64,000 bases of DNA from the IMG/VR virus record IMGVR_UViG_3300036800_000031, positions 25,254 through 89,253 of that record; one strand, given 5' to 3'. Position 1 is the first letter of the stretch. Each line of letters begins with the position of its first letter. Below, one piece after another: positions 14,807 to 46,987 of this stretch. This stretch comes from a virus. Position numbers and translations under genes: made by a program. The notes beneath the pieces were generated by a model. That model saw only the letters and a program-made list of their open reading frames with translations, ran no database searches and had not been told where the DNA came from.

Positions 14807-14878
14807 TGGCGGAGGGGAGACTCGAACTCCCGACTTCCTGGTTATGAGCCAGACGGGCTGCCGCTGCCCTACTCCGCT
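14807..14878 (-). tRNA. tRNA-Met (CAU), first of array
   Basis: Full cloverleaf with loop CTCATAA. The 1:72 pair is A-C, not a Watson-Crick pair, which is a feature of initiator-type tRNAs, but the anticodon stem lacks the three G-C pairs of initiators. Could be Met or, with lysidine, Ile. Its 5' end overlaps the stop codon of the HNH gene at 14869. CCA not encoded. Confidence 0.88.
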
Positions 14879-15408
14879 GTGCTCATAGAAGCTACCAGGG
14901 TGGGCCTACCGATAGCAAGGTATGGCTCCCAAGCGGGGTCTGGCCGGATTTTCAGGAGGTGGGCAGCGACGCCCTTGGGCCGGAAAGGGGTGTTGTGAAG
15001 TTCCCATCCCAGCGAGTCCAGGGTCTGGTGGCCCTTCTTCTGATTGCATCTCCGGCAACAAGCGGTGACGTTCTCCCAGGTGTGCTTTCCACCGAGCGCC
15101 CTGGGGACGATGTGGTCGATGGTGCCGTCCTGGCGGACGTCCTTCTGGCAGTAGCCACACCGGTACCCATCTCGGGCACAGACGTTGGAAGTGATGAGCA
15201 TGATGCTCCGGTGCTTCTCGGGCATCACGACGTACTTCCGAAGGACGAGGACCGAGGGGACCATGACCTGAGTAGACGGAGAGCGGAAGACTTCACCGCT
15301 GTATTCGATGGGGTCGGCAAGCTCCTCCAGGTAAAGCTCGACAGCATCCCGGTCGCGAATGATCGCGAGGGGTTCTCTGCTGGCGTTCAGGAGGAGCGCC
15401 CTGTTCAT
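14869..15408 (-). CDS. HNH endonuclease (array HNH 1)
   Basis: 179 aa. The C-terminal half has the zinc/HNH signature: CGYC, then DHIVPRALGGKHTWENV, then CCRRCNQKKG, as in the large family of free-standing phage HNH nucleases. The stop codon TAG is the T8-A9-G10 of the following tRNA-Met, so gene and tRNA overlap. It probably acts as a homing nuclease spreading with the tRNA array. No tRNA remnant was seen upstream of its start. Confidence 0.9.
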   Translation of the reverse strand: MNRALLLNASREPLAIIRDRDAVELYLEELADPIEYSGEVFRSPSTQVMVPSVLVLRKYVVMPEKHRSIMLITSNVCARDGYRCGYCQKDVRQDGTIDHIVPRALGGKHTWENVTACCRRCNQKKGHQTLDSLGWELHNTPFRPKGVAAHLLKIRPDPAWEPYLAIGRPTLVASMSTAE

Positions 15409-46334: not shown

Positions 46335-46430
46335 GGTTGAGTTGTCTCCCGCCTACAGAGATTCCTAACTTGTCCCTGGTCAGAGACTTGTGGCTCCAAA
46401 GGGGATGGGCGGTGTGGTACAACATCGGCT
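46335..46430. promoter_or_regulatory. Divergent promoter region
   Basis: 96 bases between the leftward packaging operon and the rightward PTH2/CUA-tRNA cluster. Both need promoters here. Candidate elements such as TTGTCC and TTGTGG for the rightward side are visible, but no clean -35/-10 pair at proper spacing. Confidence 0.45.
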
Positions 46431-46769
46431 ATGGCCTAGATACCTGATCCCGTACCCGCCAAGCTGTACGTCGTCGTTGACGAGTCGCTTCCACCGGGTT
46501 TGCAACTTGCTCAGGCTGCTCATGCGGCGTTCCAGCTTTCGGTCAATCACCCCGAAGCCGTGGACCGGTGGCACGCTGAGTCGAACTTCCTCGTGGTGCT
46601 CTCTCACCCTGATCCGTTGTCGCTGAGTGGTGACTTCGTGGTGGAGGTGGTGACCGAGCCGGACCTTCCCGGTGACCCGGTGACGGCGGTGGCCTTCCTG
46701 CCTCATCCAGGGGTGGGCCGGGCTTTGTCTTCCCTGCCCTTGGCGCTCCGGGAGCCGTCTATGTCCTGA
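46431..46769 (+). CDS. PTH2-like peptidyl-tRNA hydrolase with UAG at codon 3
   Basis: About 110 codons reading as the PTH2 fold: KLYVVVDESLPPGLQLAQAA, then HPEAVDRWHAESNFLVVLS, EVVTEPDLPGDPVTAVAFLP and a C-terminal ALSSLPLAL. Upstream of KLY the only AUG in frame is at 46431, and its third codon (46437-46439) is UAG; no other AUG/GUG/UUG lies between. The gene would need UAG decoding or a non-standard start such as CUG. Three tRNAs with CUA in the anticodon loop follow on the same strand. PTH2 frees amino acids from stalled peptidyl-tRNAs, a sensible partner of a tRNA-rich phage. Confidence 0.7.
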
Positions 46770-46775
46770 CTCCAT

Positions 46776-46843
46776 GCCAGGATGCGGCGATGGGATAGCT
46801 CCTCGGGGCTAAGTCCGAAGGTTCGACTCCTTCCCTGGCACCA
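46776..46843 (+). tRNA. Degenerate CUA tRNA-like element A
   Basis: Acceptor GCCAGG/CCTGGC, T-arm GAAGG-TTCGACT-CCTTC and encoded CCA are intact. The D-arm is reduced and the anticodon loop is short, but GGGG-CTAA-GTCC places CTA where the neighbour has its anticodon. Likely a decayed relative of element B. Confidence 0.5.
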
Positions 46844-46844
46844 A

Positions 46845-46913
46845 GCCTCAGATGGGATTGACCAGGGCGTCTAAAGTCCACGGTCCACGGTTCGACTCCG
46901 TGCTGAGGCACCA
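46845..46913 (+). tRNA. CUA (amber) tRNA B, reduced D-arm
   Basis: Acceptor GCCTCAG/CTGAGGC with ACCA; T-arm CACGG-TTCGACT-CCGTG; anticodon stem GGGC/GTCC with loop GTCTAAA, so U33 and anticodon CTA. The D-arm is only TGG-GATTGA-CCA. Confidence 0.7.
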
Positions 46914-46914
46914 A

Positions 46915-46987
46915 GCCTTCCTAGCTCAACTGGTAGAGCAGGGCCTTCTAACGGCTCACGATCCGGGTTCGATTCCTGGGGGAGGCG
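46915..46987 (+). tRNA. Amber suppressor tRNA (CUA), canonical
   Basis: Complete cloverleaf: acceptor GCCTTCC/GGGAGGC, D-arm GCTC/GAGC, anticodon stem GGGCC/GGCTC with loop TTCTAAC (anticodon CTA), T-arm CCGGG-TTCGATT-CCTGG, discriminator G, no CCA. Reads UAG. The amino acid cannot be told from sequence alone. It lies on the plus strand, opposite the main array. Confidence 0.9.

Follow-up and report, generated by a model that had tools for sequence, protein, structure and literature searches.

A conserved start-proximal amber codon and a linked suppressor tRNA suggest a natural amber gate on phage PTH2 genes

In the pyrrolysine system, a dedicated tRNA encoded by pylT reads UAG, and methyltransferase genes contain this codon. 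For phages, a regulatory use of stop-codon recoding was reportedly proposed by Borges in 2022. In the autoregulatory frameshift of RF2 (prfB), expression needs failed termination at an early in-frame stop. Phages with genetic code 15, among them Lak, crAss-like and jumbo phages, encode a CUA tRNA by which in-frame UAG codons are read (PMC6784885, PMC8346664). Suppressor tRNAs of standard-code phages are a puzzle, having been reported without a target (PMC5852040); specifically, the non-recoded jumbo phages XacN1 and Atu_ph07 carry both suppressor tRNA and peptidyl-tRNA hydrolase genes (PMC5852040, PMC6102473), and the targets of the suppressors were not identified in those papers. For a jumbo-phage PTH2, ribosome rescue after tRNA cleavage has been proposed, and the passages of that paper on the enzyme mention neither a stop-codon gate nor a linked suppressor tRNA (PMC7824862). 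Finally, Ho et al. built a suppressor-tRNA feed-forward loop that functions in E. coli, in which a stop-interrupted gene and the suppressor tRNA are driven by the same regulator, yielding a leak-proof switch (PMC7969014).

Here we describe a phage locus that is probably a natural amber gate, formed by a PTH2 gene, of the same family as the jumbo-phage enzyme, and a suppressor tRNA acting as a feed-forward pair. As in code-15 phages, a phage-encoded CUA tRNA would read an in-frame UAG, but here the code is standard and the conserved target is one start-proximal UAG of one gene. Like the pyrrolysine system, the locus pairs a gene that contains UAG with a dedicated tRNA for this codon; in our case, by contrast, the tRNA has a canonical shape, the tRNAs are unrelated between lineages and the inserted residue seems not to matter. 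The locus is natural and conserved, unlike the engineered loop, and its gate would use a suppressor tRNA at UAG (an RF1 codon) rather than the frameshift of prfB. As in XacN1 and Atu_ph07, a suppressor tRNA and a PTH gene occur in a non-recoded phage. We found no report of an amber-gated PTH2/suppressor pairing in the open-access literature, although priority is not certain.

The window, the whole stretch of 64,000 nucleotides analysed, belongs to an IMG/VR virus record of 89,253 bases (62% GC) in which capsid, portal and terminase genes are present. Nearly every gene lies on the minus strand, together with 35 tRNAs called by ARAGORN, whereas PTH2, two mini-tRNAs and tRNA(CUA) occupy the plus strand. 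A sequence-only reading of the window had correctly placed the tRNA array on the opposite strand, with a count of 37 where ARAGORN gives 35. An HNH endonuclease gene (14872-15408) borders this array. With the window as query, DNA searches for near and distant matches in the phage collection gave nothing, and neither did a search of viral contigs with an exact pattern built from the tRNA. The window record was also searched for a release factor and a tmRNA, and neither turned up.

The gene directly upstream of the tRNA-like elements (46431-46769, plus strand) had been overlooked in that reading. It begins ATG GCC TAG ATA CCT GAT CCC GTA CCC GCC AAG CTG TAC: a start codon and an in-frame amber at codon 3 (ATG GCC TAG, 46431..46439) precede the PTH2 body (46440..46769; 109 aa plus TGA, ORF 46440-46766), whose first codon is ATA and whose end lies 6 nt from mini-tRNA 1. 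The body holds no ATG, GTG or TTG before codon 21, and the upstream in-frame ATG is the sole usual start. The protein, single-copy in the record, matched phrog_1866 (E 6e-12) and is about 40-43% identical to mycobacteriophage genes annotated as peptidyl-tRNA hydrolase. Pfam PTH2 was matched weakly by the window protein alone (E 0.03) and by 11 of 14 aligned relatives, and a profile of PTH2 relatives matched the PDB PTH2 structure 2zv3 (E 3e-9). The AlphaFold model reached a pLDDT of 90.1 and a pTM of 0.83, and its best Foldseek matches were all PTH2 (3erj, E 3e-6, and further PTH2 entries). By profile and fold, these data indicate that 46440-46766 encodes a PTH2-type peptidyl-tRNA hydrolase, with predicted enzymatic activity.

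A likely -10 box on the same strand, TACAAC (46418-46423, within 46418..46430), is preceded by TGG, as in the extended -10 type, and is located 7 nt ahead of the ATG; the -35 region of the window is weak. A -10-like hexamer ending 6-7 nt before the start codon was present in all nine high-GC sequences examined, one example being L017 (TTGACA-18-TATAAA-7-ATG). At this spacing, the start codon may form the very 5' end of the transcript, and the PTH2 mRNA is probably leaderless.

About 145 nt 3' of the PTH2 stop, on the same strand, begins a canonical amber-reading tRNA(CUA) (46915-46987; anticodon 46948-46950; G73; CCA not encoded). The Rfam covariance model RF00005 scores it as a tRNA at 54.2 bits against a gathering threshold of 29 (E 7e-9 over the window), ARAGORN reads anticodon cta in the 7-nt loop TTCTAAC, all stems are fully paired and the folding z is -2.6. 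When the phage's own tRNAs were compared with it as a guide to its charging identity, the best match, Lys, reached a similarity of only 0.63, too little to suggest an identity. The ARAGORN label 'Pyl' reflects the anticodon only: the tRNA-Pyl shape (6-bp anticodon stem, very short variable loop, small D loop) was considered and rejected, as the tRNA is a standard cloverleaf with a 5-bp anticodon stem.

Two further elements lie between the genes. Mini-tRNA 1 (46776-46843, plus strand) has an acceptor stem, a T-arm and an encoded ACCA, with a degenerate D and anticodon region; its CTA triplet falls outside any recognisable 7-nt anticodon loop with U33, and neither ARAGORN nor Rfam called it. Mini-tRNA 2 (46845-46913, plus strand) combines a perfect 7-bp acceptor, 5-bp T-arm and encoded ACCA with a 2-bp D arm and the loop GTCTAAA, and is called tRNA(cta) by ARAGORN. 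An RF00005 covariance search gave no match to 46776-46843 or 46845-46913 even at E<=10. The window thus contains one certain amber-reading tRNA and two CCA-ended tRNA-like elements that are not ordinary tRNAs. Of the three tandem plus-strand CUA tRNAs in the sequence-only reading, the third is upheld in full, with its loop and anticodon, while the first two lose their status as tRNAs; the GTCTAAA loop and reduced D-arm described for the second were recovered, and for the first the retained T-arm and CCA stand but an anticodon loop around CTA does not.

Similar CCA-ended elements between PTH2 and tRNA(CUA) occur in most of the lineages examined, whereas shuffles expect about 1.4. It could be argued that the two mini-tRNAs are functionless decaying relics, an explanation compatible with an amber gate and favoured by the absence of a normal D or anticodon arm from both. 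We consider it rather unlikely, in view of this recurrence and of the perfect acceptor and T stems and encoded CCA that mini-tRNA-type elements retain, CCA being rarely encoded in the ordinary tRNAs of these phages. The acceptor-T half of a tRNA is the part bound by PTH and EF-Tu, and the mini-tRNAs keep exactly this half. Minihelices of about 34 nt were also seen in the PTH2-tRNA(CUA) gap (L007:3345-3379, L009:3433-3466, L011:3549-3582, L012:3498-3531), each with an 11-13 bp stem, a T-loop-like UCAAA or UAAA loop and an ACCA end. They are unannotated in cluster C mycobacteriophages, and some are shared by C1 and C2 phages in a different order.

Collapsing the phage PTH2 relatives at 90% identity gave 56 lineages: 43 with an early UAG, one with UAA, two in which an early stop precedes a PTH2 body in the +1 frame, and 10 with a plain start. 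In the 43 UAG lineages, ATG or GTG is followed by 0-7 codons and an in-frame TAG ahead of the conserved domain, the TAG being codon 3 in 27 of them. Examples from IMG/VR are GTG TAG GTA (L013), ATG TAG GTA (L015), ATG TCA TAG ATT (L024), ATG ACA TTT GCG TAG ATC (L017) and ATG ATG GAG CCG TAG GTT (L028); those from huge phages include ATG AAG TAG ATT, ATG TCG TAG ATT, ATG AAA AAT TAG ATT and ATG ACA TAG ATT. In the mycobacteriophages ScoobyDoobyDoo, Cane17, Phabba and Grungle, ATG TAG or GTG TAG immediately precedes the annotated GTG start of PTH2, which is followed by unannotated CCA-ended mini-tRNAs and tRNA(CUA). No early TAG is present in the one PTH2-like domain of XacN1 that was examined.

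The base following the TAG (+4) is a purine in 43/43 lineages (A 31, G 12), compared with 83/158 terminating TAGs (p 1e-10, a value that, like the others, overstates independence as lineages share ancestry), and the +5 base is T in 35. This purine rule is in line with the classical influence of 3' context on amber suppression. In 33 lineages the codon after the TAG is one for Ile or Val; the other 10 have a codon for Thr, Met, Ser, Asn or Lys there. For any new relatives we had predicted in advance a 5' end of the form start-(few codons)-TAG-purine-T, a CUA tRNA, or both. In the scan that followed, which used another alignment, 38 of 50 loci had an in-frame TAG and no alternative start; the same scan added L242 (ATG AAT AAC TAG) and two already known mycobacteriophages, and most UAG lineages came from the scan made after the prediction. 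Among control ORFs of the same loci the pattern appeared in 7/441, three of these seven being PTH2 5' ends. A scan of genome contigs for PTH2 relatives found none, and a promoter-TAG-GTG pattern retrieved 120 mostly unrelated contigs, which served as background. UAG lineages are scattered over the PTH2 tree, with about eight changes of state, consistent with an ancient feature that some lineages lost or with repeated gain.

As the main alternative, the same 5' ends could be start-stop leaders, in which AUG-(N)-UAG is a tiny uORF and ribosomes reinitiate at the next codon, no suppressor being needed and tRNA(CUA) being incidental. Minigenes are known regulatory elements (PMC8708949), GTG or ATG directly follows the TAG in four lineages (C1, C2, L011, L012), for which reinitiation would suffice, and in most others the next codon is AUN or GUN. 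In 39 of the 43, however, that codon differs from the usual starts (AUU 16, GUA 7, ACA, AGC, AAC, AAA and others), and no ATG, GTG or TTG lies between the TAG and the conserved domain. GUA, ACA, AGC and AAA hardly initiate translation. As reinitiation also leaves the purine rule, the choice of UAG in 43 lineages and the linked CUA tRNA unexplained, we judge it distinctly unlikely.

The control ORFs that start with UAG were examined as further gated genes and rejected, since for the most part they are 5' ends of PTH2 that run on into homing endonucleases. Specifically, ORFs in L239 (1718-2449), L246 (1775-2785) and L248 (2252-2989) begin as a PTH2 5' end (ATG-(N)-TAG-I...PGYQ) and continue in frame into homing-endonuclease-like sequence (NUMOD3/HNH, DUF723). 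Mobile introns thus seem to target PTH2, and an endonuclease fused in this way would be amber-gated as well. Just 3' of an amber-type PTH2, L258 carries an 84-codon ORF (from 3683) opening ATG ACT TAG ATA, possibly another gated gene. The huge phages LR756500, XacN1, LR745208 and CM1 have a second, standard PTH2 (L160, L161, L162 and L163; E 1e-29 to 1e-35) beside the divergent short one.

The suppressor tRNA proved to be linked to PTH2. It was found at 37 of 55 PTH2-family loci and on 0 of 118 other viral contigs, and all 44 suppressor tRNAs in family loci lie on the strand of PTH2, mostly 0.3-3 kb downstream. A CUA tRNA was found for 35 of the 43 UAG lineages, almost always near and on the same strand: 31 were called by ARAGORN within about 3 kb, three missed by ARAGORN were read by eye (L013, L015, L024; loops CCCTAAC or CCCTAAA) and one lies elsewhere in its record (8-nt loop). 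None was found for L158, L250, L261, L269 and four contigs ending soon after PTH2. In L278, which starts ATG ACG TAA GTA, a UUA tRNA lies 1.8 kb downstream, codon and anticodon both being switched. This is the sole such swap, as a search for further UAA/UUA PTH2 pairs found none, and its PTH2 is interrupted in mid-gene by a frameshift that may be an assembly error. An opal/selenocysteine reading was rejected, no UCA tRNA being present in the loci scanned.

The CUA tRNAs are unrelated between lineages and have no acceptor stem or discriminator in common (discriminator A 21, G 13, T 11), which argues that decoding, not one inserted residue, is what is conserved. These tRNAs appear to have undergone repeated replacement, and the amino acid inserted at the UAG probably differs between phages.

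Six of the 10 plain-start lineages also have a nearby suppressor tRNA (CUA in L026, L149, L281, L282 and L284; UUA in L156), so the linkage cannot rest on the PTH2 stop alone, and the two genes are linked for some further reason too. The UUA tRNA of L156 (2902-2978; LR745208) lies directly behind a plain-start PTH2, and that of L157 (1733-1805; Lak-A1) about 700 nt before a PTH2 that again has a plain start. The UUA tRNAs of Lak phages have been described as without known target (PMC8346664). In L218 (13002-13075), L221 (3723-3798) and L225 (3861-3936), ARAGORN called a two-base anticodon (tt) in a CTTTTCA-like loop; such tRNAs recur in the huge phages LR756502 and LR756504.

Two early-stop lineages depart from this arrangement. 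In L020 (2980-3000) and L270 (2970-2995), ATG and a few codons are followed by UGA or UAA and the PTH2 body is in the +1 frame; no suppressor tRNA was seen in either, and a prfB-like +1 frameshift in place of the suppressor gate is possible.

Outside PTH2 the code appears standard. About 14 of the 101 predicted genes in the window record terminate in TAG, so that the amber-reading tRNA claimed in the sequence-only reading is present in a phage that is not recoded, and reading TAG as sense gave no clear gain in coding density for this record and most relatives tested. UAG also terminates other genes in most PTH2-family records, and an extra TAG inside the PTH2 body of about 110 codons is rare, being limited to a handful of lineages; together these observations argue for a site-specific amber and not for recoding. 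A general reassignment of UAG (code 15), with PTH2 as merely one TAG-containing gene, would account for the gain in coding density of the L028 record, the exception, and for a second in-frame TAG in PTH2 of L155, L256, L260, L242 and L282. It appears extremely improbable, given the TAG-ended genes of the window record and the near absence of TAG from PTH2 bodies, set against its constancy at one site. The second TAG occupies a similar place after a conserved P, at codons 31-33 in L155, L256 and L260, and these three each have two CUA tRNAs nearby.

The sequence-only reading had proposed that the suppressor acts broadly, late in infection, on UAG stops of host or other phage genes, which would make the PTH2 amber a bystander. 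A suppressor tRNA unavoidably acts on other UAGs, and the suppressors near plain-start PTH2 genes are in keeping with such a role. In the window record, however, no other post-TAG ORF with coding signal and without its own start stood out, and the site-specific conservation of the PTH2 UAG would be unexplained. No specific support for broad action emerged; the comparison points to the PTH2 UAG alone, and we regard this explanation as very unlikely.

Our data therefore favour an amber gate, the window itself combining an early TAG, a purine at +4, an in-frame PTH2 and a nearby same-strand CUA tRNA, and we strongly infer that tRNA(CUA) decodes the PTH2 UAG. In the mechanism we propose, one promoter would give an mRNA starting at or very near AUG GCC UAG and covering PTH2, the mini-tRNAs and tRNA(CUA). 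As long as tRNA(CUA) is absent, RF1 would end translation when only two codons have been read. After processing, addition of CCA and charging by a host synthetase, the tRNA would read the UAG, in a context favoured for suppression by the purine 3' of it, and PTH2 would be made, the charged tRNA having to compete with RF1. Such a coherent feed-forward loop would withhold PTH2 until late, when functional phage tRNA accumulates or RF1 becomes limiting, and the purpose of the gate may thus be one of timing. The enzyme could then recycle the peptidyl-tRNAs left by drop-off, by stalled ribosomes or by tRNA cleavage. Peptidyl-tRNA arises by early drop-off (PMC10192219), and AUG-N-UAG resembles a drop-off-prone minigene, which speculatively hints at homeostasis. 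More tentatively still, the locus may belong to a general termination-sensing circuit in which PTH2 is produced only if an early stop fails (UAG/CUA, UAA/UUA and the +1 frameshift of L020 and L270), offer protection from tRNA or ribosome damage by host defences, with mini-tRNAs as ligands of PTH2, EF-Tu or a toxin, and represent a third class of UAG recoding, next to expansion of the amino-acid set and reassignment across the genome.

For the suppressor tRNAs of standard-code phages, the PTH2 UAG offers a specific conserved target. The pairing occurs in uncultured huge phages and in cultivable mycobacteriophages (clusters C1 and C2), and in the latter the gate is directly testable. Readthrough of the UAG would mean that PTH2 starts are wrongly annotated in many of the about 195 deposited mycobacteriophage records carrying the gene. 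If the gate is real, it would be a natural example of a gene held by a stop codon and freed by the suppressor tRNA that belongs to it, and the gate suggests a path by which phages may move towards genome-wide UAG reassignment.
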